This document shows, piece by piece, positions 5,638 to 34,571 of a stretch of DNA of 35,186 nucleotides (positions within the stretch are counted from its first letter, which is position 1; every line of letters starts with the position of its first letter). The translations under genes and the position numbers were made by a program. The notes beneath the pieces were generated by a model, which had not been told where the DNA came from, ran no database searches, and saw nothing but the letters and a program-made list of their open reading frames with translations. The DNA comes from a virus. The stretch lies in IMG/VR virus record IMGVR_UViG_3300044993_000595, positions 1-35,186 of that record; one strand, 5' to 3'.

Positions 5638-5752
5638 TTAATACCTCACGTCGGTGCTTACTCACTAAAGATTGTCTATCAGTCGAAAATACTAGATTTA
5701 ATCTTAAAAATATAATATCATAGTCTTAGGGCAAGGCTCGAAAGGAGACCTT
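5638..5752. promoter_or_regulatory. Divergent intergenic region with TATAAT box and near-palindrome
   Basis: This 115-base gap separates two divergently read units. TATAAT at 5711-5716 is a perfect -10 for the plus-strand cassette, but no convincing -35 lies 16-18 bases upstream. The box is part of ATAATATCAT, one mismatch from the palindrome ATGATATCAT found at 26731 and 28966. Read on the minus strand it is GACTATGATATTAT, which matches 28963-28976 in 13 of 14 bases. It could therefore serve the minus-strand 926-residue gene instead, or as well. Bases 5733-5752 can fold into a hairpin that covers the AGGAG sequence of the plus-strand gene. Confidence 0.5.
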
Positions 5753-6085
5753 TTGGGAAAAGGCAGGCACTTTAAAACTGACAAAGAACATGGCCGAATT
5801 CAGGAATTGTCCCACAAAAACAAGGAGTTGCAGCGCGAAATAGCTCGACTACGGAGAGAGAACGAAAGGCTCAAAAGCCAATGGGTGCCCCCTAAAGAAT
5901 CAAGGGTAGAGGGGGCAGCGAAAGTTAAGCCTAAGAAAAAAGACAGAGTATGCCATGAATGTGGCAAGGGAAAATTGATAATATTTAAATATGGAAAACC
6001 AGACGGCGAGTGGTATTATCGTAGCTGTGAAGTTTGCGGCTATAGAACTCGCTCTAAAAAACTTACACCGGAGGTGGAAGAATGA
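5753..6085 (+). CDS. Coiled-coil and zinc-ribbon protein, TTG start
   Basis: This 110-residue protein starts at TTG, preceded by AGGAG at 5743-5747. No in-frame ATG lies near. Residues 17-45 form a basic coiled coil (ELQREIARLRRENERLKSQ). Residues 65-100 hold a zinc ribbon made of CHEC and, about 24 residues later, CEVC, with basic residues around the second knuckle. Such ribbons bind nucleic acid or mediate protein contacts, and small phage transcription factors use them. The function here is not known. The stop overlaps the next start by 4 bases, so it is coupled to the 106-residue gene and the exonuclease. It is the first gene of a plus-strand cassette inside the minus-strand tail block. 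Confidence 0.75.
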   Translation: MGKGRHFKTDKEHGRIQELSHKNKELQREIARLRRENERLKSQWVPPKESRVEGAAKVKPKKKDRVCHECGKGKLIIFKYGKPDGEWYYRSCEVCGYRTRSKKLTPEVEE

Positions 6086-9400: not shown

Positions 9401-12400
9401 TTAACTTCCAATCTGTCTAACAGAAATGTCTGTTGTTGGGTCAATAATTCTAGCCTTCTCTGAAGGAGAGATACGGATAGTATCGTTAGAAGCATTATAA
9501 AGAGGAGAACTAATTGCAACAGCTCTAACCCCAGGAATAGTGTTCACAGACTCAACGATATCGCTGATGGCGATAGATTGGCCAATCGGGTTACCATCGA
9601 TAAGAGCTGAAATATTTGTTCTAACCTGTTCTGTAATTTGGGCAAACGGAATGCCGGTCTCGATACGAACGTCGATAGCGACCTGAACACGTCTAAATAG
9701 AGGCTCGCGAATAAATATCTCAGCTCCAGCAGCTCCTACGCCTGAATAGGTTACAGGATCTCTTGGGTCACCGTAAACTATACGGTTTGCCTCTCCGATC
9801 ATGCCAGTATGGTAGCGATAGCTATCTAATCCTTTTATGATCTTAGTGTTAAAATTAAGTTTAACCATTGCAGAGATTTGAACTTCGCCAACATCGTTAA
9901 TCTTGTTGTGCTGTTCGTAAGTTGAAAACACCATAATCCCACGATCTGTGGATGCTGGGTCATTTAATAGCATTCTAATCTTTTTGTATCCTACATAAGG
10001 ATTTTTTTCTTGAACAAAAATAGACTCTTCATTTCCTGCTAAAGAAGTGAACGCTTTATCTGACATAGTACCAACAACAAGTATTGTATCCTGATCGATG
10101 ACTCGATCAACAACCCAAGAAGCCTTGTTGGTTGAGCCCAAAAAATTGCTCGTGATTACGAAAGAATCTCCAGGAACTGTAGCTTCATATTCAAAATACA
10201 GCATTTGAGGGCGATGCAACTGAAGAACGTTAGTAATTAAAATACCAGTTTCTGCTGAAACCGCAGGATTTATGCACTCAAGGAAAGTTCTTCGGCCTTG
10301 TTGCAAGATCTCGATGTCAAACTGAGCATTCATGTTACCTTCGGTTGCATCCGTAGTTTCGGCAAACCCTGTTGTTGTAACAGTGACCTTATTGGTAGAA
10401 GCTACGGCTGTAAGATTGGTACCAGCTACGGTGTTAATCGCCAGCGCTGTGGCTGTCGCAACCTGCGTAGCAGTGTCCGAGCTGTTAATTGCAACCTGGA
10501 TTCCAGTTTTACCAACTAAAGCAGGGTCTCCACCACCACCGTTTACGTCATACCACACATAGTATTCAGTAGTATTAGCAGCGGCATTTATCAACCAATA
10601 ATCACCAGTGGTGATTAAGTTTCCAGAGATACAAGTTGCTTTTGTGATCTCCTGCAGCTTAGCACCAGATTTGGTAACCATAAAAGTTCCTTGGTTGTTT
10701 GACAAGAAATCAGTACCGAAAGTGATCTCATCACCTGGGCGAGCAACACCAAGAAGCGGTTCTGTTCCAACGCCGTTCCAAACAAGCTTCATCTTGTTAT
10801 TTGTTGCTTGAACATTAAACTGAGTAGTGCCTGTATAGCTAAGAGAGATAGAATTAAGAGGCAAGTTGACAGATTCTTCAACAGAGTTTGGATTATCTAT
10901 ATAGATAGAGTTATTGAAGCGTCGAATCACCCTGAAAGTGCCTCTGTTTAAAATTGCAAAAGGTGCTGAGATTATTACGCTATCGCCTTCAGATACAGAA
11001 GAGGTGCAAGAAAAACTAGAAGTAGTGTATGGATTACCGACAAGAGTTGGACCGGAAACGGCACCTCCACCGCCACCACCAAGGTCGTTGTAGACTAGTG
11101 TTATGTTTGCGTTTGGAGCTGTGGCTTCAACCGTCACAACGCCTCCAGAAGAAGTGGCTGTGACCCCTGGAAGAACACCAATAGCAGAAGCAAGGTTGGC
11201 AGCAGTAGCAGCAGCGTTAGGCCCAACAACAAAATCCACACCAGCAATCAAAGAGTTACCACCGATGATGAACTGGTCACCTGTAATGTTGGCGTTATTG
11301 AGGATAGAGCACGTTCCTGTTGAAAACTCGTTTACTCCCAAAGAGTTTAAAACCCTCAAGGTTTTACCGTTTTCTGAAACACCGGTTACAAGAAAAGAAC
11401 CGTTATTTTCGGTTTTACTCATGCCAGATACCGTAACGATATCTCCTATAGATACTTCTGTAAAGTTTACAGGACCGGTTAGGATGTAGATATTCACCTC
11501 ATCTGTATTTGTAATTCTTTCTATGTTAAGCGTTCCGCTTGCAGTGGCGTTCAGGTTTAATGCCTTAGAAAAGAAAGGTTGGGTACCCGATCCGTTCCAG
11601 CTAATACATGTGAAGTCGCCTTGTTTTTCAACCTTAAAAGTTCTACCCTGAGAACGGATATGATGTCTTGGTTTACCAAAATGCCTGTCTGTAAGCGTTC
11701 TACCTGTAAGGGCAATTTTCGATTTACCTACTGTTTCAAAGTCTCCGTCAACCTCTATAGAGGCTGTTTCTTTAAAGAGAGTATCTTTAGGTTGCTTAAA
11801 ATTTGCAGAAAGTTTTACCCATTGATCACTATGGAATCCTGCTAAACCTGCGCGATTCACACTCGTAAGTGTATACTGGTTCTTAATTTGAGCAGAGACT
11901 CCTAAGACAGGGGTTTCTACCGTGTTTGCAGTACCGCCAACGACCTGAATAGAGCCGCTTCCGCCCAAGAGGTTTGTGGCAAGCTCCATACGACCTTCCC
12001 TACTTGTAAGGTTTATTGAGCCAAGCGTTGTAAACCCAGAGACAGCAAGAATGTTCGAAAATCTTACGGCCTGATCAATACTTGTGGGAACAAGTCTAAT
12101 TTCTTCAGATTGGTTAAAAGCGTAGCCAGTATCGGAAGTATAGGTTAGAGGAACCTTGAAAGTAAACTGAGGAGAGCCGCTTAGGTTAGTACTTGCAATC
12201 CAGTTGACACCGTCTTTTAAATAATAAGAATCAAAAGCAAAATCATTTTGCTCGGCAGTGCTTCTGTTGATAACGCCAGAACCAGAAATACCGCCATCAT
12301 TTACAAGAGTAGCCGTCAAAATATCTGAAAGAGTAGAAGTTGTAACATATGTCTGAATTTCTGCAGCAGTTGTCGAAGAAGCTTGAAAGAAGCTAAAAAC

Positions 12401-15400
12401 ACCTGCTATAAGGGTAGCCTTATCCTGCTCAGCAACCGCTTCGCCGTTTTTCCTAACAATTGTAAAGCTATTTGCAGTAGGGGCGAATCCAGGCTGAGTA
12501 CTAACGCGGAAAGTTCCTGTATTTTTCTTGCTTAATTCAGAACCTTGAGATATGGTTACATATTCGCCGCCTGCCAAACCACCCAAACCAGGAGCCGTAC
12601 CAGTACCTGTCCAAGTATAAGTTACCTGATCAACGCCTGCAACAGGAGTGTTTGCGGTTATTGTGACGTCCCATTCTGTGGTTCCATCTATAGTAGTAGG
12701 AACAGGGGCGCCAGATTTAAGTGAAATTTTTACTTCTACGTTATCATTAACAGTAACCGTATGCAAGATTGGGCTATTCGGAACTGTAGGATAAGAATAT
12801 CCTACGTTGATTCTTTCTCCAGACCTTCCCCATTTTTTTGCACGATATAAGATAGCGTCCTGAGAGGCAGGAGGGTCGATAACCCTTTTTGCTTGCATCA
12901 AAGCTTTGAAATTATCAAACTTAAAAGCTGAACCAAAAAACTGAGTGAAAGGAGTTGTCGGTCCGCCGTCAAAATCATAAGCATTAAAACTATTAGGGTT
13001 AACAGCTAAGCTTGTATTTGTTTTGGCCTTTCTGAAAAAAGGAACACCAAAAGTTTTGTTTGATGCATCGTCATCCAGAACAACGACAACCTCATCTTCG
13101 TGGCCAAAATCGAGAGGCTGAGCAAAGTATAAGCGATCATCAAGTCGGAGTCTTTTAACTAAAGGGTCTTGATCAAGGGTGAGTGTAGCTCCTGAATAGT
13201 TATCAAGCTCTGTATTTTCTGAGGTACTCAAAGCATCTAAGATAGAGCCGTAGGGTTGCAAGTATCCAACAATCAAGTTGGGGTCTAGCCCTATGGTGGA
13301 AGGGTTGATAGAGCTTGTGATAGTAGAAATATAGTTAGAAGGAGGAACAGCAGAAGCCTCTGAAGCAAAAGCGGCATGTGCAAAAAGAGGAAAAGAGCCT
13401 TCTTTGTAACCGCTTTCATAAAAAGCTACTAGAGAGTCTTTGCTTGTGTCAGAATCTCCGGCAGTGAAATTTAGAAGCTTACCAGAAGCATCAAAAGTAA
13501 CAACCAGTATAGCCCCTTCAGATGTTTTTGTTTTTGTTTTACAAACTATGATTTCGTCATCAACAGTTGAAAACTCAGCAGCTTTAACCTGAGTATTGAG
13601 TTCATCAGAAATTTCACTTAAAAACTTAGTTCCTGAGTTAACTTTAAGTTTTTGAGGAACCTTTTTAGTTCTAACAACAACAAAGCCTTCTTGAAAAATA
13701 ATTCCAGATTCAACAACAGCAGCAGCGTACTCTGTGGCGGTAACTTTAATATCTAGAGTGCTTCCTGTAACCGCATTTACACGGCCTTCAAGTCTGTTGG
13801 GAGCTGAAAGCTGTGGTGACCAGACAATTACGTAATCCCCAACCTGAACTGTCGAGAATGCTGTAGATACAGATGAGGTATACCGAACGATATTTGCGGT
13901 AGGTTTTAGAACACCAATCAAAGAGGTGGCGGCTACACCTGTATTTACTATAGAAGCATCTTTATCGTCAAATAAAAACCATATGTGAGCAGTAGATGCT
14001 AAAGTGATAGTTCCACCAAGAACTCTCGCGGTCTCAACTCGCGCTTCAGTTTCTCGACTACCAGCAGTAAGCTCATCCCCTGCAGCAAGAGGCGTTTTAA
14101 GTTTAATTTGAGCAGTGTTTCTAGAAAATTCAAAATCAGAAGATTTTCCAGAGGCAGTCAAACCAATAGTTGTTGAAAACATATTCTTGGTTACAAGCGT
14201 AGAGCTTGGAGAGATTTCAAGCTTAGCCCTGTTTGAGGGACCAAGATTTGAAGTAATGTAGATTTGCTCGCCAACAATTGTAGCAGTTATGCCAGTGAGC
14301 TTCTTATTAAGTACGTTTACCCAACTTTCAAGAGAGTTTGTAGAGGCAACGGTGGTATGAGAACCTTCAGCGACAAAATCAGCGTCTGTGATTGTGTATG
14401 TAATGCTGTTTGTCCCGTCAACAGACAGGATAAGAGTATCGCCTGTAGCGATAGTATTTGACCAATCCGCCTGCCTGCGAGACTTAAGTGTGGCCGAGTT
14501 TCCATCTTTTGAAAGGGGAGATTTATTTTTAAATAAACGAAGAGTTTCTACCTTATTTGAAGGAAAGCCCATCAAAACAGACGCATCTCTTCCAGATGTC
14601 ACACTTACGGATTGGATATCTTCATTGTCATTACTGCGAGCCTGTAGGACAACTTTAGTTCCGCCCTCAGAAGTCGCAGCTTCAAAAAGTAAGCTACTGT
14701 TTGCGTTGATAGAGGCAACTATTTCGTAAGCTGTGGCGCCGCCAGGGCTGATAAAATCGCTGTCCTGAAACGTATGCTCAGTAGTGACCCCTCCTATCGA
14801 TATAGCAAGTCGGTCCGTACCGCGAACATCAAACGGAGCTTTAAGATTTGAAACGATAAAAGCTTTGGCCACACTTGTTTGTCGACCACCGGTCTCAAGC
14901 TGGAAGTTAGTCTCTCCGCCAAGAGCAGAGTCAACCAAAAACTCAATACCTACGCCAGACGTTTTTTGCTCGTATCCCGTTCCATCATCGATATAAAGCG
15001 TAGTTTCTCCTGCGCTTGTCACAATCTCAGAGGAAACAACGGTAGCATTCTCATCTGAGGGAGTAGCCCCAATGACTGAGTTTTTAACAGCCAAAGAGGT
15101 TCCGAGTCCGCGAGAAAGACGCGCTCGCTTAATACGAATACGAAGTTCTTCATCGGTTTCAACATCACGACCGGTTTTGAATGGAAGGATATTTGTTACC
15201 TGAGCACCTGAGAAAGGTACTGATGAGAATTCTTTGATAGCACCGATTGGTACGTTTCCAATCTTTCCTGGTTCCTGGGCAGATACGGGTACACTATTAA
15301 CCTCAGTCTCACCGTCAAGAATGACGGCAGGCTGCGTAGTGGAAAAGTTAATGTCTGCGGTAGCCCCTGAAGACGGCGCTCTAACTACTGTTCCAGCGGC

Positions 15401-15961
15401 GATAGTGCGAGTACCGCCTTGAGCAAGAATTACGGTCTCATTGATATTATGAAATTTAGCTGTTGGAGTAGATAGTGTTAGCTTCCAGTACCCACCGATT
15501 GGTGTTTTACTTGTATATGCAAGGGGCCCTTCTACGTTTGGGGTTCCACGGCCTATATAAACTTGTCCAGAATTTGGAAAGCTGGAAGCGTCTGAAACAA
15601 AGATCTCTACAGATCCAATATTTGGAGCTTTTGTTCCTGCGTATATCTTTGTTGATTTTTTTGTAAAACTAGAGTCTGTAATTTTTACAGTACCAGAGGC
15701 AACACGGGCAGGCAAATCACGAAGACCTTCATCCGTAGCAATACGTCGAAGAGATTCGCCTTCTGCGCGGTCAACAGACAGATCTCTGAGAATCTGCATT
15801 GCATCGCCAGATACACGGGCAGACATCAAAGCTACAACCTCAAAAAGTTGGGTCGTTAAAGAGCCTACATTGACATCGTTGCCGCCTGTTCTGGAAATCC
15901 AGTCAGCGAGCATTTCTCCTAGAAACTGTTCTTGCGATTTTGCATTAGGTGTCTGAGCCAT
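9401..15961 (-). CDS. Giant baseplate J-like wedge protein with long internal insertion
   Basis: The 2186-residue protein has the ends of a Baseplate_J family (gp6/gp47-type) wedge protein. Residues 1-110 contain the ESLRRIATDEGL and ARVASGTVKI entry segments. Residues 180-300 contain the AGTVVRAPSSG strand, EPGKIGNVPIGAI, and TGRDVETDEELRIRIKRAR with the following SLAVKNSVIGA, all hallmarks of the family. The last 100 residues hold VQVAIDVRI, TNISALIDGNPIG, and VESVNTIPGVRAVAI. Typical members have 300-500 residues. Here about 1700 residues are inserted, made of beta modules with a repeated GDxVxI and NxGTFxV pattern and one SGDYWLI, YYVWYD, ATQVA module at 1775-1890. It should form baseplate wedges, with the insertion projecting outward. 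The GAGGAATT ribosome-binding site lies 6 bases before the ATG. Confidence 0.88.
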   Translation of the reverse strand: MAQTPNAKSQEQFLGEMLADWISRTGGNDVNVGSLTTQLFEVVALMSARVSGDAMQILRDLSVDRAEGESLRRIATDEGLRDLPARVASGTVKITDSSFTKKSTKIYAGTKAPNIGSVEIFVSDASSFPNSGQVYIGRGTPNVEGPLAYTSKTPIGGYWKLTLSTPTAKFHNINETVILAQGGTRTIAAGTVVRAPSSGATADINFSTTQPAVILDGETEVNSVPVSAQEPGKIGNVPIGAIKEFSSVPFSGAQVTNILPFKTGRDVETDEELRIRIKRARLSRGLGTSLAVKNSVIGATPSDENATVVSSEIVTSAGETTLYIDDGTGYEQKTSGVGIEFLVDSALGGETNFQLETGGRQTSVAKAFIVSNLKAPFDVRGTDRLAISIGGVTTEHTFQDSDFISPGGATAYEIVASINANSSLLFEAATSEGGTKVVLQARSNDNEDIQSVSVTSGRDASVLMGFPSNKVETLRLFKNKSPLSKDGNSATLKSRRQADWSNTIATGDTLILSVDGTNSITYTITDADFVAEGSHTTVASTNSLESWVNVLNKKLTGITATIVGEQIYITSNLGPSNRAKLEISPSSTLVTKNMFSTTIGLTASGKSSDFEFSRNTAQIKLKTPLAAGDELTAGSRETEARVETARVLGGTITLASTAHIWFLFDDKDASIVNTGVAATSLIGVLKPTANIVRYTSSVSTAFSTVQVGDYVIVWSPQLSAPNRLEGRVNAVTGSTLDIKVTATEYAAAVVESGIIFQEGFVVVRTKKVPQKLKVNSGTKFLSEISDELNTQVKAAEFSTVDDEIIVCKTKTKTSEGAILVVTFDASGKLLNFTAGDSDTSKDSLVAFYESGYKEGSFPLFAHAAFASEASAVPPSNYISTITSSINPSTIGLDPNLIVGYLQPYGSILDALSTSENTELDNYSGATLTLDQDPLVKRLRLDDRLYFAQPLDFGHEDEVVVVLDDDASNKTFGVPFFRKAKTNTSLAVNPNSFNAYDFDGGPTTPFTQFFGSAFKFDNFKALMQAKRVIDPPASQDAILYRAKKWGRSGERINVGYSYPTVPNSPILHTVTVNDNVEVKISLKSGAPVPTTIDGTTEWDVTITANTPVAGVDQVTYTWTGTGTAPGLGGLAGGEYVTISQGSELSKKNTGTFRVSTQPGFAPTANSFTIVRKNGEAVAEQDKATLIAGVFSFFQASSTTAAEIQTYVTTSTLSDILTATLVNDGGISGSGVINRSTAEQNDFAFDSYYLKDGVNWIASTNLSGSPQFTFKVPLTYTSDTGYAFNQSEEIRLVPTSIDQAVRFSNILAVSGFTTLGSINLTSREGRMELATNLLGGSGSIQVVGGTANTVETPVLGVSAQIKNQYTLTSVNRAGLAGFHSDQWVKLSANFKQPKDTLFKETASIEVDGDFETVGKSKIALTGRTLTDRHFGKPRHHIRSQGRTFKVEKQGDFTCISWNGSGTQPFFSKALNLNATASGTLNIERITNTDEVNIYILTGPVNFTEVSIGDIVTVSGMSKTENNGSFLVTGVSENGKTLRVLNSLGVNEFSTGTCSILNNANITGDQFIIGGNSLIAGVDFVVGPNAAATAANLASAIGVLPGVTATSSGGVVTVEATAPNANITLVYNDLGGGGGGAVSGPTLVGNPYTTSSFSCTSSVSEGDSVIISAPFAILNRGTFRVIRRFNNSIYIDNPNSVEESVNLPLNSISLSYTGTTQFNVQATNNKMKLVWNGVGTEPLLGVARPGDEITFGTDFLSNNQGTFMVTKSGAKLQEITKATCISGNLITTGDYWLINAAANTTEYYVWYDVNGGGGDPALVGKTGIQVAINSSDTATQVATATALAINTVAGTNLTAVASTNKVTVTTTGFAETTDATEGNMNAQFDIEILQQGRRTFLECINPAVSAETGILITNVLQLHRPQMLYFEYEATVPGDSFVITSNFLGSTNKASWVVDRVIDQDTILVVGTMSDKAFTSLAGNEESIFVQEKNPYVGYKKIRMLLNDPASTDRGIMVFSTYEQHNKINDVGEVQISAMVKLNFNTKIIKGLDSYRYHTGMIGEANRIVYGDPRDPVTYSGVGAAGAEIFIREPLFRRVQVAIDVRIETGIPFAQITEQVRTNISALIDGNPIGQSIAISDIVESVNTIPGVRAVAISSPLYNASNDTIRISPSEKARIIDPTTDISVRQIGS

Positions 15962-24308: not shown

Positions 24309-26664
24309 CTTTTGGTGCTCCTTTTGGTTGGATCAAATCTCTTCCTTGAGGACCAACTCCAATTTTGGAGTAAAGTTCAGAAAGTTTCTTAGACGCTTCA
24401 GACAGGCCTTGCATGTCAGTTTCAGATATCTTTTTAAGGTTTTGAGCAGCGGTGACGATTTCTTGCGAGAACGTTATAAGGTTCTGATTGGCAATGTCTA
24501 CCTGACCTGTAAAATTTTTCATGGTTTCCATAAATGCTTGATCGCCGGCTGCTTGACCTGCGATCATCTTGTCGGCAGCTCGAGCGGGCCCTTCTTCCAT
24601 TTTTAAGGAAGTTTGAATTTCTTGTGCTGCGGTTGCCCCTGACCGACCAAAAACGTTACCCTGTATGAAAGACTCTTGCTCTGCGGCGGTCATCTTTGCT
24701 ATCGCGGCAACGTCATAGCCCATACCAGAAAGGTATTTGCTTGCAGCTTCCCTGTACTCTGGAGAGCCTTTTTTTCCAGCGGCATCTAGATCTTTTAGTT
24801 TTTGTGCCTGCCGATCAATGTCCGCACGTGTAGATTGGGCCTCACGTTTGATTTGTTTTGCTTTTTTAACAAATTCTTCTTTTGACAAACCGACTGTTGC
24901 CGCCATACCCTCAACAATCGGACCACCAGCTTCTAGCTGTTCGTTTGTTAACTGAAGTAACATATTTCTCTGATCGCGATTCAAATTTTTCAGTGCAGGG
25001 TCACGATTTAATGCCGCAGCCTGAATGACACCACGAGCACCTCCTGCTTCACCAGATAAAGCTTCGGTAACTTCATAAGCCTTTCGTGCCCCCTGAACCT
25101 GAAACATATTTGTCCCAGCAACAAACTTAGAAAACCCTTCAACAACGCCTCTTTGATTGCTGTCGATAGCGCCAGATCTTGATATGATTTGGGTAGACAT
25201 GTCCACAAAGCGTCTTTGCTCTTCTGCGAACTGAGAGTCGTCAAGACCGATAGATACAGCCTCAGCCATTACCTTGACCATAGAAGCATTTGCTTCACCG
25301 GAACCAGTAGTAAGGCCTGAGATTCTGCCCATGGCAGTACCGGCATTTGTAAGGTTAAAATTTCTCTGAAGTGCGTTTACAGAATTCGCATTATCACGAG
25401 CAGCTCGAGTCGAGCCACCAGCCCCGATAATGTCTCCCATAGCTTGACGAGTAAGATCTGTAGTAAAGCCTGCACGGGTTCCCGAGATCAAGGACGAGAT
25501 CATCTGCTCATCGCTCATTCCCGTCATGCGCTGAGCTGAAAGGTTTGGCATCAACTCTTGTTGATACCTTTCGATAGCAGCCCTTCTTACTGGGTCTAGA
25601 TTTTTTCTTGCCTCAAGGTTTTGCTGGAAAGCAGCCGCACGCCTTTCTTCCATCTGAGATTGATAGGTACCAGCCATCCGACCCATGACATCACTAGTTC
25701 CGCCCATGGCAGAAAAAGCAGCACCGCCAGCAGCTAGGGAGCCTGCGATCAAAGGAACACCTATGGGGGCACCAAGACCAGAAGCGGTTAAAGCAACACC
25801 TGCAGCGGTACCAACACCTGCAAGGAGTTTCATCCCTAAGCTTATGTTGTCAATGGTTTTTTGTCTGTCGATTTCTTTTTTTGAATCAGTTAAAGCCTTT
25901 TGTATTTCTGGTGCAAACAAAGTTTGTTCAAGGCCCTGCCTGTTCATAACGTCACGAGCACCTTGCCCATAAATAGAACGAACGGAACCTTGAGCAGACA
26001 AAATTTCACGAGGAGCCTGATTGAATGCCGTAGCAATATTTGCCCCCATGACACCAGCAGCTCCGACACCACCTAAAAGACTCAACATACCAAGAGGGCC
26101 CATAGAGGCAATACCTCGACCGAGTCCAACAGCTCCTGCAGCAAGCTGGCCACCAAGGCCTGCACCACCGACGCCAGCGCCACGGAAAGCCGCAGCTCCA
26201 CGCTGCATAGCGCCAAGATATCCGCCTTCGCCATCAAAACCTGGACGTCGCCGATCCTGCAACGCTCGCATCGTAGCCTCTTCTGAGACTCTCATCTTTT
26301 CGCGATTAGTAGCTATCTGCTTTTCTATCTCAGCAGTATCCTTGGCCAACTTGAGCATTTCTTTTCTCTGCTCAAGTTGTTTGGCTATGGTCTTGGCAAG
26401 AGCTTCTTGCTGTTTGACTTGCTCTCTTATAAATTTATCTAATTCTTGACGAGTTCTACGGTCTTCCTGGTCAGCCCTAATCCTGTCTCCAGGAGTTGGG
26501 GCTGCCCCGAGTCCAGCCCTGGAAACGGCCTGTTTTACTTCAAGCTGAGCGCGAGAGCGATCAGAGGCCTGATAGACCGATTGAAGTTTTTTCTGCATCT
26601 GCTCTACAGCTCTGTCAAATTCTTTTGTGTCGATGACCGAACTGAACCGTATTTCCTTTTTCAT
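24301..26664 (-). CDS. Tape measure protein
   Basis: The 787-residue protein shows the composition of a tail length determinant. Residues 10-140 form long charged helices (VKQQEALAKTIAKQLEQRKE). Residues 150-215 and 275-322 are Ala/Gly-rich hydrophobic stretches (GVGGAGLGGQLAAGAVGLGR, SLAAGGAAFSAMGG) that could insert in membrane during DNA injection. The remainder is helical, to a disordered C-terminal tail. The start is at the beginning of the minus-strand block, followed by the hub. At about 0.15 nm per residue the tail would be near 120 nm, an inference from the family rule. No peptidase or lysozyme domain is seen. The ribosome-binding site is only a weak AGTAGG, so expression may be limited. 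Confidence 0.8.
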   Translation of the reverse strand: MKKEIRFSSVIDTKEFDRAVEQMQKKLQSVYQASDRSRAQLEVKQAVSRAGLGAAPTPGDRIRADQEDRRTRQELDKFIREQVKQQEALAKTIAKQLEQRKEMLKLAKDTAEIEKQIATNREKMRVSEEATMRALQDRRRPGFDGEGGYLGAMQRGAAAFRGAGVGGAGLGGQLAAGAVGLGRGIASMGPLGMLSLLGGVGAAGVMGANIATAFNQAPREILSAQGSVRSIYGQGARDVMNRQGLEQTLFAPEIQKALTDSKKEIDRQKTIDNISLGMKLLAGVGTAAGVALTASGLGAPIGVPLIAGSLAAGGAAFSAMGGTSDVMGRMAGTYQSQMEERRAAAFQQNLEARKNLDPVRRAAIERYQQELMPNLSAQRMTGMSDEQMISSLISGTRAGFTTDLTRQAMGDIIGAGGSTRAARDNANSVNALQRNFNLTNAGTAMGRISGLTTGSGEANASMVKVMAEAVSIGLDDSQFAEEQRRFVDMSTQIISRSGAIDSNQRGVVEGFSKFVAGTNMFQVQGARKAYEVTEALSGEAGGARGVIQAAALNRDPALKNLNRDQRNMLLQLTNEQLEAGGPIVEGMAATVGLSKEEFVKKAKQIKREAQSTRADIDRQAQKLKDLDAAGKKGSPEYREAASKYLSGMGYDVAAIAKMTAAEQESFIQGNVFGRSGATAAQEIQTSLKMEEGPARAADKMIAGQAAGDQAFMETMKNFTGQVDIANQNLITFSQEIVTAAQNLKKISETDMQGLSEASKKLSELYSKIGVGPQGRDLIQPKGAPKGE

Positions 26665-26789
26665 TATGCCTACTTAGCCTCTTTCAACAGAACCCTACCC
26701 TATAAAGATTGCCCTCATCTGCTTATATTCATGATATCATGTTGACATGGGCCAAATCTTCTGAGATACTAGCCTTGGAGGCAATTATA
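26665..26789. promoter_or_regulatory. Divergent control region with palindrome CATGATATCATG and plus-strand promoter
   Basis: On the plus strand TTGACA at 26742-26747 and GATACT at 26765-26770 are 17 bases apart, a good sigma70-type promoter for the operon that begins at 26790. The perfect 12-base palindrome CATGATATCATG at 26730-26741 touches the -35, a common place for an operator or activator site. The minus-strand tape measure gene must also start from this region, but no clear promoter for it could be chosen. Confidence 0.65.
26742..26770 (+). promoter_or_regulatory. Sigma70-like promoter TTGACA-17-GATACT
   Basis: The -35 is a consensus TTGACA, the spacer is 17 bases, and the -10 GATACT fits the consensus in four of six positions. 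The same GATACT is used in the promoter before the DUF932 gene at 33257. A transcript would begin near 26777, and TTGGAGG at 26775-26781 is the ribosome-binding site for the 26790 gene, so the leader is very short. Confidence 0.62.
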
Positions 26790-27032
26790 ATGACAAAGGA
26801 AAAGCTAGAAAACGAGATAGAATTTAAGAAAAAATGTATTTTTTACACGGAAAGACTTATCAAAGACCCTCCTAACGACAGTCTTTCGCAAACTATGTTA
26901 AACCAGGCCGCTAGGCTTAAAGCCGAGCTGTCTCGTCTTGAGGCGGAATTGGGCAAATTTAAAGACAGTACTAAAAACAAAAAACTTAAGAAAAAACAAA
27001 CACTTAAAAAGCAAAAAAGGAGCAAAAAATGA
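26790..27032 (+). CDS. Small lysine-rich coiled-coil protein
   Basis: The start is set at ATG 26790, which has TTGGAGG 8 bases upstream. An earlier in-frame reading from 26709 would cross the promoter and is unlikely. The 80-residue product is a helical coiled coil (KLENEIEFKKKC, then LKAELSRLEAELGKF) with a tail of mostly lysine (KKLKKKQTLKKQKRSKK). The basic tail may bind nucleic acid or an acidic surface. I know no family. It overlaps the next gene by 4 bases and is the first of six genes read together. Confidence 0.62.
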   Translation: MTKEKLENEIEFKKKCIFYTERLIKDPPNDSLSQTMLNQAARLKAELSRLEAELGKFKDSTKNKKLKKKQTLKKQKRSKK

Positions 27033-27388
27033 TTCTTTACACGATTGCAATATTGGCTTTAGGAGCCCTTTTGGGCGGTTATTTTTATCGCCAAAAATTC
27101 AAACAAAAGGCTCAAAAAGGTCTTGAAGCTATGTTTCACAAAGGGTTTGAGTCAGGGATAGAGAAGGCCCGGGCCGATCTAAACGCATCCCTTGACGCCT
27201 ACCAAAACGCAGAGCTTCAGGAAGAAGCAAAAATAGCAAAGCTTGCTGAGGAAATTGGTATCGAGGTAAAAATGGAAGAATCCTCTTGCGGCGCAGGGTG
27301 CGATCACTCTGAAACGTACTCCATCTCAGTGCCTAAAAAAACTAAAAAGAAAACAACCAAAAAGAAAACTAGAAAGTCTAAAAAATGA
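27029..27388 (+). CDS. Single-pass membrane protein with Cys motif and lysine-rich tail
   Basis: The 119-residue protein has one N-terminal membrane segment (residues 2-20, ILYTIAILALGALLGGYFY), followed by a basic stretch and a helical region of about 60 residues. Residues 86-94 are CGAGCDHSE, which could bind metal. The last 17 residues are almost all Lys/Thr/Arg. The positive-inside rule suggests that the long part faces the cytoplasm. It is not a known lysis protein: there is no second hydrophobic segment, no lipoprotein partner and no muralytic enzyme nearby. It overlaps both neighbours by 4 bases. Confidence 0.65.
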   Translation: MILYTIAILALGALLGGYFYRQKFKQKAQKGLEAMFHKGFESGIEKARADLNASLDAYQNAELQEEAKIAKLAEEIGIEVKMEESSCGAGCDHSETYSISVPKKTKKKTTKKKTRKSKK

Positions 27389-27777
27389 CATGGCTTCCAA
27401 TAGGCTCTAGTGTAGTTTATCCGGACGGCGTTAAAAGAGGCCGTCCGCGAGATGGTGAGAGATTTGCTTATAACGGCGAAATCTACACCTGGGACAATCA
27501 AATTGAGCGATGGTCTAATTGGAGGGGTAAAATAGTTGAGTTTAAAGAAAAAGAAGGCCCCGTACTTTCTATGTATGACAACTGGACACACGCAGAATGT
27601 CAGCCACCGCTTACAAAGCACGAAGATGAAGCTAAGAAAAAAACTGAAGGGGAAAAACTTCGCGATTTCTTTTTTTCCAAAAATGAATTAGGCTGTGAGT
27701 GCGGTGTTTGGCTAACAGGTTCAGATCGCCACAGCAAATACTGTAAGCTTTACAGGGAGGAAAATGAGTGTGGGTAA
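27385..27777 (+). CDS. Unknown 130-residue protein with clustered C-terminal cysteines
   Basis: This protein is not recognised. The N-terminal part has a small SH3-like or Trp-rich appearance (NGEIYTWDNQIERWSNWRG). The C-terminal 30 residues contain GCECG, DRHSKYC and ENECG, with enough Cys and His for a small zinc site. Its start overlaps the membrane protein gene by 4 bases. Its end overlaps the 78-residue gene by 14 bases, so it belongs to the same operon. A function cannot be given. Confidence 0.62.
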   Translation: MTWLPIGSSVVYPDGVKRGRPRDGERFAYNGEIYTWDNQIERWSNWRGKIVEFKEKEGPVLSMYDNWTHAECQPPLTKHEDEAKKKTEGEKLRDFFFSKNELGCECGVWLTGSDRHSKYCKLYREENECG

Positions 27778-28000
27778 TTTTGTTGTTCTCGAACATCTCC
27801 CGTGGTTGGAAGTGCCTAGAATCGTTGGCTATTTTAACGATCTAAAAGAAGCAGAGCTTGAAGCGCAGAAACTTAACTCAAAAAGTTTTGATTCTAATTT
27901 CAGTGTTGGAAATCTTAGCTACACATTTGAGATAAGGCCTGTAATAACTTCGGAAATGTTCGAAAATATAAAAAGACTCACGCCTTCTTTGAGGTTTTAG
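27764..28000 (+). CDS. Unknown 78-residue protein
   Basis: The ATG follows an AGGGAGGAAA ribosome-binding site inside the end of the previous gene. The product shows a beta-alpha-beta order (FVVLEHLPWLEV, FNDLKEAELEAQKLN, YTFEIRPVI) suggestive of a small ferredoxin-like fold, and no catalytic residues. I cannot name a family. It ends directly before the next ATG. Confidence 0.6.
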   Translation: MSVGNFVVLEHLPWLEVPRIVGYFNDLKEAELEAQKLNSKSFDSNFSVGNLSYTFEIRPVITSEMFENIKRLTPSLRF

Positions 28001-28357
28001 ATGGGAATGGATAGCATCATCCTAACAGGAATGGTATCGCTTTCTTGCGGAAACATATCTGATACCAAGAGCGTAAAAAACGCCTGTTCAACAGGCATTG
28101 AAGCAGCAGCACGCCAGAGCGGCATATACGAAAATATAAAAAAAGAAGAAAATAAGCTTGCTGCAAAAGCAGAAAATAAGATCAAAAAACACATGAGCCC
28201 AACGACCATTGAAATTGTGAGTACAATGGTTCTATCTGGAAGGCTTCTTTTTGGGCACAACAGTTCTTTCAGATTAGGCAAGGGTCCTTTGGGAGGAAAC
28301 TATGTGTTTGAAACAAACACGAAAGATTTTTATCTAAAGATCGGTTGGGACCTATGA
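28001..28357 (+). CDS. Unknown 118-residue protein
   Basis: The ATG directly follows the stop of the previous gene, with TGAGG a few bases upstream. ATG at 28007 is a second possible start. Residues 38-62 are a charged helix (KKEENKLAAKAENKIKK). Around 66-84 a mildly hydrophobic segment follows, and the last 35 residues are strand-like (NYVFETNTKDFYLKIGWDL). The N-terminus includes one Cys, but not in a proper lipobox. No family is recognised. It overlaps the next gene by ATGA. Confidence 0.6.
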   Translation: MGMDSIILTGMVSLSCGNISDTKSVKNACSTGIEAAARQSGIYENIKKEENKLAAKAENKIKKHMSPTTIEIVSTMVLSGRLLFGHNSSFRLGKGPLGGNYVFETNTKDFYLKIGWDL

Positions 28358-28695
28358 ATCAGTACGAAGACAAAGCAAACAGAAGGCAAGTTTGGGAACA
28401 TAGGTTTGATTTTAAGGAAAACGGCGGATATTACATGAAGGTTTGTTACAGGCCCAAAAACCGTTTTTGGAAAATTATGCACAAGCTTGGTCTTATTAAG
28501 ACCCAAGTTCCGATTGCTGAAATTGAAAATAGTCCGATGGACTGGGAATATCTTTGTGTTGAAATTGTAGACGGCTTGAAAGTAAAAAGTATATTTTCCA
28601 CAACTAACGGCATCAAAACATTTCGAATATCCATACCGAACGAGACTGCGGACAAGTACGAGGCCATAATAAGTTTTGAGAGGCTTTACAGCTAA
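28354..28695 (+). CDS. Unknown 113-residue protein, last gene of the operon
   Basis: The start is set at ATG 28354, part of an ATGA overlap with the previous stop and preceded by TTGGGA. A TTG at 28345 in the same frame is less likely. The protein is mostly beta by pattern (YYMKVCYRPK, CVEIVDGLKVKSIF, FRISIPNET) with a basic middle. I do not recognise it. The gene is followed by 286 bases without coding sequence, which hold the structured region and terminator of this unit. Confidence 0.58.
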   Translation: MNQYEDKANRRQVWEHRFDFKENGGYYMKVCYRPKNRFWKIMHKLGLIKTQVPIAEIENSPMDWEYLCVEIVDGLKVKSIFSTTNGIKTFRISIPNETADKYEAIISFERLYS

Positions 28696-28699
28696 AACC

Positions 28700-28714
28700 T
28701 TGTAATAATTACAA
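28700..28714. promoter_or_regulatory. Perfect palindrome TTGTAATAATTACAA
   Basis: Two 7-base arms meet around a single central base, 4 bases after the stop of the last operon gene. It is too tight to form a useful RNA hairpin, so a protein-binding site is more likely. No other copy was noticed in the window. Confidence 0.4.
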
Positions 28715-28750
28715 TTTATCTTAAGCGCCAATCTTTAGTATGACCGAATA

Positions 28751-28783
28751 GGTCCTGTTTAGGTTTAAGTCTGACCCAGGACC
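28751..28783 (+). ncRNA. Stem-loop GGTCCTG / CAGGACC
   Basis: The 7-base arms at 28751-28757 and 28777-28783 close a 19-base loop in which GGTT (28762-28765) can pair with GACC (28773-28776). GACC at 28742-28745 can instead pair with GGTC at 28751-28754, so two folds compete. It directly precedes the branched structure at 28784-28860 and may be part of the same RNA. Confidence 0.4.
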
Positions 28784-28860
28784 GGCCTAGGTTTCATAAA
28801 TCTCAATTAGACTAAAAAGAGATGAAATCCTCGACGAGGATACCTAGGCTCTTTTTTCTT
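28784..28860 (+). ncRNA. Candidate branched RNA with U-tract end
   Basis: Three helices can form together. P1 pairs GCCTAGGT (28785-28792) with ACCTAGGC (28842-28849). Inside it, ATCTC (28800-28804) pairs with GAGAT (28819-28823). ATCCTC (28827-28832) pairs with GAGGAT (28836-28841) around a GAC loop. TCTTTTTTCTT follows at once, as in an intrinsic terminator. It is not a tRNA or any riboswitch I recognise. It may be a stable small RNA, or a complex terminator for the operon that ends at 28695. Confidence 0.42.
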
Positions 28861-28927
28861 GATTTTATAAAAATGTGAGTTAATTTTATTTTACCCTCCA
28901 CAATAAAAAACAGTTCCCCATTGTTTC

Positions 28928-28959
28928 AAGCCCCTCCAAAAGAGGGGTTTGTTTTTTTT
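28928..28959 (+). terminator. Strong intrinsic terminator
   Basis: AAGCCCCTC and GAGGGGTTT pair over 9 positions, with one G-U, around a CAAAA loop. They are followed by GTTTTTTTT. This closes the 26790-28695 transcription unit and insulates the gene at 28982. Confidence 0.85.
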
Positions 28960-28962
28960 GGG

Positions 28963-28976
28963 ACTATGATATCATG
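28963..28976 (+). promoter_or_regulatory. -10 like TATGAT inside palindrome ATGATATCATG
   Basis: TATGAT at 28965-28970 fits a -10 in five of six positions, and no -35 precedes it (the terminator occupies that space). The 11-base sequence ATGATATCATG at 28966-28976 is identical to 26731-26741. A transcript starting about 7 bases after the box would leave fewer than 10 bases before the ATG at 28982. Confidence 0.5.
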
Positions 28977-28981
28977 TAAAT

Positions 28982-29809
28982 ATGAAAACAAACATAGATA
29001 TAATGCTTTTTAAAGCCGGAAAAGAAGACAAGTTCAAAAGAGCAGACCTAGTTCTTGAAAGGGCTTCCAAAACAGGCTTCGTTGAAATGTACACAATGGA
29101 ATGCACAAAATGGAACTACCCCGACAACGGTAAAAATACCGAGCTTCCAAAAGAAGATGGCACCTTTGATGTGGAAGGCCACTCGTGCTCTGATATTCAG
29201 GCGGTTTGGGATGTTCGATGGTGGGAAAGGCGACACTGGCACACTATCAAGGATAGTGTTATAAACTACCTCGAGGGCATCAAAGAGTTCATCATAGATG
29301 ATTTTAAGTTTTGGATAAAAAAAGAACCAAAGTATCTTTTCAAAAAGATGAAGGACTGGCTATTCATCAACCCATTTAAGGTTCAGCAGGAAGGATGGGT
29401 TTGGGTGGTAGACTCTCTATCTGCTTCGATGAAGTCTGCGGCCTATGAACTTGCAGACGACTTAATATCCATAGAACAGGGCTTCGAAAGCTCTATAGAG
29501 CGTTTTACAAGAACAGGAAAAATCAACGAAGTGAAAAAAGTACAAGCAAGAGCTGACGAGCTGATGGCTACCGAGGCCGGTCGTCACCAGGTATTCTTGC
29601 ACATGGTTAAAGAAGATAACCTTGTAAAGGTTACAGATTACATGTGGGTGAACGAAAACGATCCGACATGTTTTGTTATAGACGACAATTTTATGCCGTT
29701 TAACATGAAAAACGGCTGGTCGCCAGAAATGCTCACAAAAGTCATCTCGTATTGGTTCCGTGTATTCTACGGAGTAGATGTGACCGTAAAAGTAAAGGAA
29801 AACAGATGA
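28982..29809 (+). CDS. Unknown 275-residue protein, possibly leaderless
   Basis: I do not recognise this protein. It is rich in Trp and aromatic residues around 78-110 (VRWWERRHWHTIKD, DDFKFWIKKEPKYLFKKMK) and helical between 125 and 200. The C-terminal part has CFVIDDNFMPFNMKNGWSPE and ends basic. The segment MYTMECTKW to EGHSCSDI holds two Cys. There is no Shine-Dalgarno sequence, since ATGTAAAT precedes the ATG. The stop overlaps the start of the oxygenase gene by ATGA, so the two are probably coupled and may act in one pathway. Confidence 0.7.
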   Translation: MKTNIDIMLFKAGKEDKFKRADLVLERASKTGFVEMYTMECTKWNYPDNGKNTELPKEDGTFDVEGHSCSDIQAVWDVRWWERRHWHTIKDSVINYLEGIKEFIIDDFKFWIKKEPKYLFKKMKDWLFINPFKVQQEGWVWVVDSLSASMKSAAYELADDLISIEQGFESSIERFTRTGKINEVKKVQARADELMATEAGRHQVFLHMVKEDNLVKVTDYMWVNENDPTCFVIDDNFMPFNMKNGWSPEMLTKVISYWFRVFYGVDVTVKVKENR

Positions 29810-30666
29810 GTAGATTAAGACTTATCCAAGATTTTGATGTAAAGATTGTCGACATGGAATCTGAAAAGTGGCCTGAAATGCTTGCGTATTCTTTTCGAAA
29901 TACCGGCTTTGCAATTTTGAAAAACCACGGGGTCGATTTCAGAAACATAGAAGTACTTTACGCTCAATGGACCGAATTCTTTGCTTCTAACCAAAAATAC
30001 ATGTACAAATCAAAAGACGAAAACAACGGATATATCCCTTTTCGATCTGAAAACGCAAAAGGAAACCCAGTGAAAGATCTTAAAGAGTTCTTTCACGTGT
30101 TTGCACCGTTTGAGAATGTTCCAAATGGCGTGAGTCGGATGATCACGAAAAGGGTGGCTGAAGATATGCTGAAGATAGCTAGGCACCTACTTTTTGTCCT
30201 TCAGCCAAACATTTCAAATGAACTTTACCGCTTACAGGGCGAAACCATACAAAACATGGTAAAAGATTCCAAAAACAACTTGTTAAGAGTCCTTCACTAC
30301 CCAGCTATCGAAGGCGAGGTGGAGCCTGGAGCAGTAAGGGCTGCAGCCCATGAGGATATAAACCTGATAACGCTTCTTCCTGCGGCAACACAACCAGGTC
30401 TTGAGGTTCAAGATCTTAAGGGTAACTGGCACAAGATTGAATGTGATCCTGGAACTATCGTGGTAAACGTCGGAGACATGCTCCAGGAAGCAAGCGGCGG
30501 AGTATTTAAAAGCACAACCCACAGGGTGGTCAATTCCGAAGGCGAAAACGTAGCAAGATACTCGATGCCACTGTTTGTACACCCTCGTCCAGAATGTATT
30601 TTAAGTAAGAAATACACGGCAGGGCAATATCTTGACGAAAGACTTAAGGAGATTGGACTAAAATGA
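29806..30666 (+). CDS. 2-oxoglutarate/Fe(II)-dependent oxygenase, isopenicillin N synthase-like
   Basis: The start at ATG 29806 is chosen because it overlaps the previous stop (ATGA) and follows AAAGGA. A longer in-frame reading begins inside the upstream gene and is unlikely. The 286-residue protein has an N-terminal helix domain (AYSFRNTGFAILKNHGVD) as in the IPNS family, where it precedes the double-stranded beta helix. The iron ligands are H182 and D184 (AAHEDINLITLLP) and H239 (STTHRVVN). The 2-oxoglutarate site is R251 and S253 (RYSMPLF). Members hydroxylate or ring-close small molecules. In phages, other iron oxygenases of this fold modify nucleobases or proteins, and the substrate here is not known. 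It overlaps the next small gene by ATGA. Confidence 0.9.
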   Translation: MSRLRLIQDFDVKIVDMESEKWPEMLAYSFRNTGFAILKNHGVDFRNIEVLYAQWTEFFASNQKYMYKSKDENNGYIPFRSENAKGNPVKDLKEFFHVFAPFENVPNGVSRMITKRVAEDMLKIARHLLFVLQPNISNELYRLQGETIQNMVKDSKNNLLRVLHYPAIEGEVEPGAVRAAAHEDINLITLLPAATQPGLEVQDLKGNWHKIECDPGTIVVNVGDMLQEASGGVFKSTTHRVVNSEGENVARYSMPLFVHPRPECILSKKYTAGQYLDERLKEIGLK

Positions 30667-32043: not shown

Positions 32044-33256
32044 AACACTGATGCAATACATGATCGACGAAAAGGAAAAGGAAGCTCCACTATTTAAGGA
32101 ACTTCGAAATAAGTACCCAGACTTTGGCGAGAAACTGCTGATGCCAGCTTCGGTAACCGGAGAGACAAAAAATCCACTTATCGGGTTTGCAAGTTCCAAT
32201 GACTGGAAATCCCTGATCGAATTCTACACAGGGCACCGATCGTCTAAGATCACAAGCATCTTTTTAAGCAAGCTGCTCATAGAATATGAGACCGAGGAAT
32301 ACGAGTACGGAATCGATAAGATTTTGATGGATTACCAATCAAACAACACTCCTGATCGATCAAGACCTAATTCGTTCACTGTTCTGTTGGATAAAAAGAA
32401 GAAAAAGAAGATGATCGACCGTTTTTTCCTAGAGAAAGCTCAGCTAGCAAAAAGATGCGGTTTAAACATCGGTCAGATACAGAACGTTCTTGAGAATCAC
32501 AACTCTGTTGGGGAAAAACACACAAGCCGGCGCTACAGCCAAGTCAGCATCTTCGGTTTAACAAATATTAAAGATCTGATCGGTACAGAAAAGACGTACC
32601 GAATCCTTCTGACCTGGAACGGAGACACAGGATACGGAACGCTCTCGGACTCGGTCTACATGTTCGAAACTCTTGTCCAGCACTCCAAAAACCCAGCACT
32701 GGGCTACAAGATTGATAGAATCAAAGATTGTCCCATATCGAACGTCAAGGATTTCCATGATTTCCTGGTTCAAGAACAAAACTACGTCGAAAGAAAGATA
32801 GGCTCAATGCCGATCCAATACACAGGGTTCAGAGCATGGCTGTCTAAGCTAAAGATCGAAGGCCTGGAAACCTACATACCAGAACAAACCGGAGATCTTG
32901 TCGAGATCGGACAGAAACTCCACAACTGCATCGGTACCTACAAGAAACGAGTGGCAAATGGCTCCGATACGATCGTAGCATTCAAACAAGGCGACCAGTT
33001 TAAAATGGCGATGAATGTATATATCGTAGAGCCTAAGTTTGCACCCACGGAAAGGGGGATGGTCAACACCGAAAACATGGCTGAGCTGGAAAGCATGATG
33101 AGGTCGATCACGCCTGGAGAGGTGAGAATTGTAGAGTTTAAGGAAAACTACAATAAGACGGTTCAAGATGAGACGAAAAATCTTGTGGAAAAACAGCTAG
33201 TTGAATTATTTACAGAATACAAGAAAGAATTATTGGACAATAAAACTGCTACGTGA
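32033..33256 (+). CDS. PcfJ-like protein
   Basis: The 407-residue product has the C-terminal PcfJ motif at about 283-325: DLVEIGQKLHNCIGTYKKR, then GSDTIVAFKQGDQFKMAMNV. The Leu-His-x-Cys core is at 296-299. PcfJ was named from a conjugative plasmid of Enterococcus, and such proteins occur in plasmids and large phages. Their activity is not established. The rest is mostly helical and has a Lys cluster at 121-126. The start has GAAAGAGG about 6 bases upstream. It lies directly before the promoter of the DUF932 gene, and that promoter (33234-33262) overlaps its 3' end. Confidence 0.72.
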   Translation: MFLRTLMQYMIDEKEKEAPLFKELRNKYPDFGEKLLMPASVTGETKNPLIGFASSNDWKSLIEFYTGHRSSKITSIFLSKLLIEYETEEYEYGIDKILMDYQSNNTPDRSRPNSFTVLLDKKKKKKMIDRFFLEKAQLAKRCGLNIGQIQNVLENHNSVGEKHTSRRYSQVSIFGLTNIKDLIGTEKTYRILLTWNGDTGYGTLSDSVYMFETLVQHSKNPALGYKIDRIKDCPISNVKDFHDFLVQEQNYVERKIGSMPIQYTGFRAWLSKLKIEGLETYIPEQTGDLVEIGQKLHNCIGTYKKRVANGSDTIVAFKQGDQFKMAMNVYIVEPKFAPTERGMVNTENMAELESMMRSITPGEVRIVEFKENYNKTVQDETKNLVEKQLVELFTEYKKELLDNKTAT

Positions 33257-33262
33257 GATACT
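33234..33262 (+). promoter_or_regulatory. Sigma70-like promoter TGGACA-17-GATACT
   Basis: TGGACA at 33234-33239 and GATACT at 33257-33262 are 17 bases apart. The -10 is the same as that at 26765. It overlaps the last codons of the PcfJ-like gene. A transcript would start near 33269, about 20 bases before the DUF932 start, and would carry the strong ribosome-binding site TAGGAGGT at 33279-33286. Confidence 0.6.
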
Positions 33263-33290: not shown

Positions 33291-34250
33291 ATGGCTCATG
33301 AAGTAGAAAAAATGATGTTCACAGGCGATGTACCATGGCACAAGCTTGGTCACAGATTCGAACAAGCGCCCAGCCTTGAAGAGGCTTTAGTAGCAGCAGG
33401 CCTTGATTGGACCGTATCTACAGAACCAGTTTTCTCTGGTGCTGGCGAAAAAGTTGAGGCCCAGCTTACTCGCCGATCTTCAGACAACTCGATCTTAGGT
33501 GTCGTCGGTCCAAACTACGTACCACTCCAAAACAGCGAAGCTTTTGAGTTTTTCCGTCCGTTCCTTGATCAGAAAGAAGCGGCGATCGAAACTGCAGGAT
33601 CTCTTCGTATGGGTAAGCGCGTATGGATCTTGGCTAAGATCAACCGTGACCCTATGACCGTAAAAGGTAACGACATCGTAGATAAGTATGTCTTGCTGTC
33701 AAATAGCCATGACGGAACATTGGCGGTTCGAGTAGGCTTTACACCCGTTCGGGTTGTTTGCAGTAACACACTGGCTGGTGCCCATAACAATAAAGCTTCT
33801 AAGCTTATCCGTGTAAAACACACTAAGAATGTTGTTCAAAATCTTGAAAACATTCGTGAAATTATGGACCTTGCGAACTCAGAATTTGAGGCAACTGCAG
33901 AACAGTACCGATTGCTTGCTAACAAGTCGATCAACCAGAAAGATCTTGAGAAGTATGTAAAGCTTGTGTTCAACACACAGTCACGCATCGTTGAGGCAGA
34001 AGGTAACCTTGACTCCATCAACAACAAGAGAATTCTTGATGAGGTTCAGCCTTTGTTTGAGGTTGGTCGCGGTAACGACATGCCTGAGATTAAAGGAACT
34101 TTCTGGGCAGCCTACAACGCAGTTTCGGAATATTTACAGTATAACCGAGGCGAAGATGTAGGCGGACGACTTGATAGCTTGTGGTTTGGTCAAGGTGCTC
34201 AGCTTAACAAAAAGGCATTTGAAACAGCCATCATCATGGCGGCTTCGTAA
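33291..34250 (+). CDS. DUF932 (phage/plasmid-like TIGR03299) protein
   Basis: The 319-residue protein matches the family from its first residues: MAHEVEKMMFTGDVPWHKLG, then SLEEALVAAGLDWTV, LGVVGPNYVPLQNSEAFEFF, and VCSNTL in the middle. The family is widespread on phages and plasmids, and its biochemical role is not firmly established. A part in DNA recombination or replication has been suggested for relatives by context. The gene has its own promoter, the best ribosome-binding site in the window (TAGGAGGT) and a terminator right after it. It also uses more CGT, GGT and AAG codons than its neighbours, so it should be well expressed. It starts 34 bases after the PcfJ-like gene. Confidence 0.85.
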   Translation: MAHEVEKMMFTGDVPWHKLGHRFEQAPSLEEALVAAGLDWTVSTEPVFSGAGEKVEAQLTRRSSDNSILGVVGPNYVPLQNSEAFEFFRPFLDQKEAAIETAGSLRMGKRVWILAKINRDPMTVKGNDIVDKYVLLSNSHDGTLAVRVGFTPVRVVCSNTLAGAHNNKASKLIRVKHTKNVVQNLENIREIMDLANSEFEATAEQYRLLANKSINQKDLEKYVKLVFNTQSRIVEAEGNLDSINNKRILDEVQPLFEVGRGNDMPEIKGTFWAAYNAVSEYLQYNRGEDVGGRLDSLWFGQGAQLNKKAFETAIIMAAS

Positions 34251-34334: not shown

Positions 34335-34571
34335 ATGAACGAAGAACAAACACTACCAGTAGGTTCGGTTACGGTGCAGTCAGCGCTGCAGAATAAATCA
34401 GAAAGTTTTATGACTCTGGAAGAGGTTGAGCGTAAACATATTGAAAGAGCGCTTTTTACTTTCGGAAGTAATAAAACCAAGGCGGCAAAAGCTCTTGGGA
34501 TCTCTCTAAAGACGCTTTACAACAAGCTTCACGCTTACGGAATGATGGAGAAGTCTGCGGATGAAAAGTAA
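34335..34571 (+). CDS. Fis-type helix-turn-helix DNA-binding protein
   Basis: The 78-residue product has an acidic or flexible N-terminus. From residue 27 it carries the Fis/NtrC C-terminal helix-turn-helix (HTH_8): LEEVERKHIERALFTFGSNK, then TKAAKALGISLKTLYNKLHAYGM. It lacks the AAA+ and receiver domains of NtrC proteins, so it should act as a small dimeric DNA-binding protein, like Fis. It may be a phage transcription regulator that binds AT-rich palindromes. The start has AAAGGAGG at 34320-34327. It overlaps the next gene by 11 bases. Its own promoter is not clear, although TTGCAA at 34287 might be a -35. Confidence 0.86.
   Translation: MNEEQTLPVGSVTVQSALQNKSESFMTLEEVERKHIERALFTFGSNKTKAAKALGISLKTLYNKLHAYGMMEKSADEK

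Follow-up and report, generated by a model that had tools for sequence, protein, structure and literature searches.

A palindromic regulatory element, possibly a promoter core, in a small group of uncultivated tailed phages

The palindrome ATGATATCAT serves a small group of uncultivated tailed phages as a genuine regulatory element and, from its position and conservation, we consider it probable (at roughly 60%) that it forms the core of a class of phage promoters, in the shape of an extended -10 made of TGA and TATCAT that would need no -35 box. The element was studied in a 35-kb virus record (the window, that is, the whole stretch of 35,186 nucleotides), which carries minus-strand late genes, including those for a sheath-like protein and baseplate proteins, and plus-strand units that start at 5753, 26790 and 28982. 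Viral contigs encode 77 relatives of the sheath-like protein, whose only match in a named phage is to the distant Myxococcus phage Mx1 (46% over 29% of its length). The gene at 9401-15961 shows no DNA similarity to known phages, Rfam and tRNA searches of the window were both empty, and few relatives were found for the 275-aa protein encoded at 28982-29809, the 2OG-oxygenase (29752-30666) and a 787-aa protein. The comparison set consisted of two relatives, G001 (149 kb) and G002 (67 kb), together with several shorter records; G001 also carries genes with intein or LAGLIDADG domains at 141464-144283 (minus strand) and 11767-13659 (plus strand), one of them within ribonucleotide reductase. Genes and start codons were called with a simple home-made caller, and the labels "early" and "late" reflect the nature of the downstream genes, not timing data.

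Occurrence and conservation of the palindrome

The initial annotation had reported two exact copies, which we find as ATGATATCAT at 26731-26740 and 28966-28975, and a one-mismatch copy that is indeed present but starts at 5712, one base to the left of the position given (5713). The window holds no further exact or one-mismatch copies. All three sites lie in non-coding gaps ahead of plus-strand genes (starts 26790, 28982 and 5753), as had been claimed, and the longer common string GACTATGATAT(C/T)AT was recovered at site 28966 on the plus strand and at site 5712 on the minus strand. The relevant features of the window are the following.

5666-5673, minus strand: late element AATCTTTA before the sheath gene
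5700-5707, plus strand: late-type element AATCTTAA just upstream of the 5712 site
5712-5721, plus strand: copy with one mismatch, ATAATATCAT, ahead of the zinc-ribbon gene and divergent from the sheath gene
5753-6085, plus strand: gene for a coiled-coil plus zinc-ribbon protein, downstream of the 5712 site and conserved among close relatives
26703-26710, minus strand: late element AATCTTTA, enriched family-wide, before the late gene at 26664 (minus strand)
26731-26740, no strand assigned: palindrome ATGATATCAT in the gap from which the late gene at 26664 (minus strand) and the early unit at 26790 (plus strand) diverge
26742-26770, plus strand: early promoter of the sigma70 type, TTGACA-17-GATACT, its -10 preceded by TG, conserved in L101, G001 and G002
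26790-27032, plus strand: first gene of the early unit behind the 26731 site, with homologues in L101 and G002
28927-28959, plus strand: intrinsic terminator directly upstream of the 28966 site
28966-28975, plus strand: palindrome ATGATATCAT, exact match, with the predicted extended -10 TGA-TATCAT (hexamer 28970-28975)
28982, plus strand: predicted transcript start, with TATCAT exactly 6 nt before the ATG at 28982
28982-29809, plus strand: first gene of the third plus-strand unit, with a predicted leaderless start and no Shine-Dalgarno sequence
34335-34571, plus strand: Fis-type HTH_8 protein, a candidate binder

Many coding copies at chance frequency, which the initial annotation had named as evidence against a regulatory role, were not seen: five of the six exact copies in the window, G001 and G002 are non-coding (Fisher p 4.6e-6; 251 kb, about 6% non-coding, with 15 kb non-coding and 236 kb coding), a count in which one copy in a gene missed by the caller is assigned to coding and in which related sites are not independent of each other. 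Two candidates for non-coding copies, G001 60977 and G002 29012, were rejected because both are located within genes or probable genes. Among 30 palindromes built from the permuted half-site, no other had more than one non-coding copy (as counted before the reassignment of one copy to coding). When the upstream gaps were scanned for 9-mers with no motif set in advance, divergent gaps entering twice, ATGATATCA/TGATATCAT came first and CAATCTTTA next. No enrichment of the palindrome was detected in five more distant phages (573 kb), so that the element is both real and specific to the subgroup. Literature searches on the palindrome motif and on AATCTTTA yielded nothing relevant.

The two halves of the palindrome differ in their conservation. 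At orthologous and related sites TATCA(T/C), the right half, is retained whereas the left half varies, with ATAATATCAC, ATAGTATCAT and AATATATCAC seen at orthologous sites, and this constancy of one half only favours a directional element. At position 4 of the hexamer, the non-coding copies include eight of TGATATCAT, none of TGATATAAT and three of TGATATTAT, that is, C nearly always. In the counterparts of the 26731 site in L101, G001 and G002, TATCA(T/C) is retained beside TTGAC and the left half is degenerate. Most close relatives keep TATCA(T/C) about 26-31 or 50 nt before the start of the zinc-ribbon gene, which is found in every close relative with the sheath region covered, G001 included. 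The 28966 site is absent at the corresponding place in L101 and G002.

Promoter-like elements and their distance from start codons

Three promoter-like types can be recognised in these phages: early, late and palindrome. The early type (TTGAC-N17-GATACT-like, with TG before the -10) mostly lies 16-22 nt before an ATG; the L101 counterpart of the promoter at 26742 reads TTGACA...TGAAATAAT, and a second promoter of this type, TGGACA-17-GATACT, lies at 33234-33262 (plus strand) of the window before the DUF932 gene at 33291, with a similar sequence before the G002 homologue. The late type, AATCTT, usually takes the form AATCTTTA and precedes structural genes throughout the broader family. The other element enriched in sister phages reads TGTTATA(T/C)T or TGGTATAAT, both plain extended -10 elements, and some of the extended -10 elements of the TGnTATAAT type in these phages are also located 6 nt before an ATG.

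The distances of seven hexamers (AATCTT, TATCAT, TATAAT, TATATT, TATACT, GATGAT and GATACT) to the called start codons were compared in 15 records. Exactly 6 nt before the start there are 20 hexamers, whereas the distances of 2-5 and 7-12 nt have 3.1 each on average (Poisson p 1.5e-10, a value that supports the distance rather than the choice of hexamers because these were picked after the motifs had been seen); a dead zone at about 7-15 nt is followed by a second peak at about 16-31 nt. AATCTT accounts for 11 of the cases at 6 nt, the start codon is ATG in 20/20, and the TATCAT at 28970-28975 is among them. Such spacing is what leaderless transcripts would look like if the polymerase started 7 nt after the -10. 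The cases span all three promoter types and come from G001, G009, G013, G014, G015, G017 and the window, so that leaderless starts appear to be common.

The only copy of the palindrome with this geometry is that at 28966, where the T run of the terminator ends about 6 nt ahead of the palindrome and the best -35 match is 3/6. The -10 boxes that had been claimed at 28965 (TATGAT) and 5711 (TATAAT) are indeed there, but the geometry is matched by TATCAT, which lies five bases beyond; TATGAT was rejected as the -10 because, at 11 nt from the ATG, it would fall in the dead zone. Melting of the TATCAT hexamer by RNA polymerase would lead to initiation about 7 nt further downstream, at 28966 on the A of the ATG at 28982, which would yield a leaderless mRNA, translated as such, right behind the terminator. 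Just upstream of this region, at 28730-28858 (plus strand), a late-type AATCTT at 28730 has its predicted start at 28742, where a structured stretch follows that terminates in a T run (MFE -37.8, z -3.66; no Rfam match), likely a small phage RNA; a different structured stretch is present at the same place in G002 (L090 19757-19848, z -4.04).

At other copies, leaders of about 11-25 nt are predicted. The copy at G001 55330 lies 17 nt before an ATG, that at G001 52864 31 nt ahead of the ATG of a putative reading frame, and that at G002 15806 30 nt before the start of the zinc-ribbon gene; the copy at G001 4649 occupies a 58-nt divergent gap, 18 nt from a helicase gene (minus) and 30 nt from a chaperonin gene (plus). 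TGn directly precedes the hexamer at 26731, 28966, G001 4649, 52864 and 55330, and G002 15806, but not at 5712 (ATAATATCAT). The best TTGACA matches at palindrome sites reach only 2-4/6 at spacers of 15-19, which amounts to no -35, and the predicted start base is A at 6/9 sites. The palindromic shape would be largely a by-product of the promoter core because TGA plus TATCA reads identically on both strands. The C that recurs at position 4 of the hexamer, as it does in AATCTT, suggests that a phage-modified polymerase reads the element.

Several observations speak against a promoter. Sigma70 hexamers do not usually have a C at position 4, some of the related sites have TATCAC at their end, which is a poor -10, and the predicted distances other than that at 28966 are broad enough to arise by chance. 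Moreover, the hexamer at 26731 lies 49 nt from the gene start, with a good sigma70 promoter in between. The role of the palindrome is less certain at 26731, where it abuts the -35 of the early promoter, with a late AATCTT 29 nt away on the other strand, and at 5712, where it overlaps a late one; at both sites it may only add a second start or couple the use of the neighbouring promoters. At 5700, AATCTTAA is probably older than the palindrome because it is also found ahead of the zinc-ribbon gene in relatives that lack the latter (L010, L014, L020 and L022).

Operator function and candidate binding proteins

The initial annotation left a choice between an operator and a part of a promoter. At 28966, the 6-nt geometry, the upstream terminator and the lack of a -35 speak for the promoter, and the case for a dimer site only is weaker, given that TATCA(T/C) but not the left half is preserved at orthologous and related sites. 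It is nonetheless possible, although we would not bet on it, that a dimeric phage regulator uses the palindrome as its operator, placed between early and late promoters; at 26731 this operator would cover the early -35 and may shut off the early genes in favour of the divergent late promoter. The perfect dyad in five non-coding copies speaks for such a regulator, the constant C is not needed by sigma70, and the early -35 is abutted in the window, L101, G001 and G002 with AATCTT 28-29 nt away, a spacing of 28 nt that recurs in an unrelated G001 gap at 21.9 kb. Conservation of both halves is however not what we observe at orthologous sites, most late elements have no palindrome, the spacing elsewhere varies (21, 36 and 47-52), and at 28966 there is no other recognisable promoter to regulate. 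The lack of a palindrome at most late elements and the variable spacing also led us to reject it as an upstream element of late promoters.

Rather improbable is a division of labour in which the palindrome serves as a core promoter at 28966, G001 55330, G001 4649 and G002 15806 and as a regulator site at locations of the 26731 type. As this would predict, the TG ahead of the hexamer survives at sites without another recognisable promoter and is lost beside the late-type AATCTT, but two readers of one sequence would be required and independent sites are few. A chance or compositional artefact is very improbable: the window has only three sites, and at least three such matches were reached in 2/100 shuffled windows (mean expectation 0.73), but the element is enriched in independent relatives and comes first in the unbiased motif scan.

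As to what might bind the element, the Fis-type protein that had been put forward is encoded in the window and in G002 but does not qualify as a general reader because G001 (149 kb) carries the motif without a detectable HTH_8 gene; the zinc-ribbon protein is still a candidate. Two further proteins are candidate phage transcription factors by domain similarity: a small G002 protein (49996-50451; L091:10396-10851) with a sigma region 4-like helix-turn-helix (Sigma70_r4 over cut-off), and a G001 protein (L084 16220-16576) with a weaker sigma70 region 4-like helix-turn-helix, below the family cut-off.

Comparison with known promoters and implications

The proposed promoter core resembles the extended -10 sigma70 promoter (TGnTATAAT) in having TG one base before a hexamer that matches the -10 at 5/6 positions and no recognisable -35, but differs in the nearly constant C (for A) at position 4, in the perfect palindrome and in that some related sites end in C. 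The middle promoters of phage T4, which depend on MotA, combine a -10 without a -35 with an activator box near -30, and T4 possesses early promoters of the sigma70 type and late promoters as well. The palindrome is likewise a -10 without a -35 beside early sigma70-type and late promoters; unlike in T4, no common activator box was apparent by eye in the 40 nt upstream of the palindrome sites.

According to Warman et al. (2021), as described in PMC10268837, bidirectional promoters with a symmetric -10 have starts 7-25 bp apart, usually 18 bp. The palindrome similarly offers a -10 on each strand, with predicted starts 23 bp apart, within that range although not at the usual 18 bp given there; the starts are predicted here, and G001 4649 is the only site within a divergent pair that has no other promoters. 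In that 58-nt gap the palindrome is accompanied by neither a TTGAC box nor an AATCTT element, so that both strands may be used there, and perfect copies could fire divergently, most plausibly at this site. The broader proposal, that a phage-modified polymerase reads a symmetric -10 (RTGATATCAY) both ways, one 10-bp element starting two divergent units and, at leaderless genes, setting the transcript start on the start codon, is one that we consider doubtful.

Leaderless promoters of mycobacteria have a -10 hexamer in place of the Shine-Dalgarno sequence just before the start codon (PMC4633059). The same replacement is predicted here upstream of the start, with the difference that it concerns phages and extends across three promoter types.

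Collectively, these observations provide a promoter map, with early, palindrome and late types, for large uncultivated sheathed-tail phages for which the sheath protein reveals a single distant named relative, Mx1. The sequence alone indicates that leaderless starts are common in these phages, and the 6-nt rule leads to testable transcript starts and should aid in correcting start codons.
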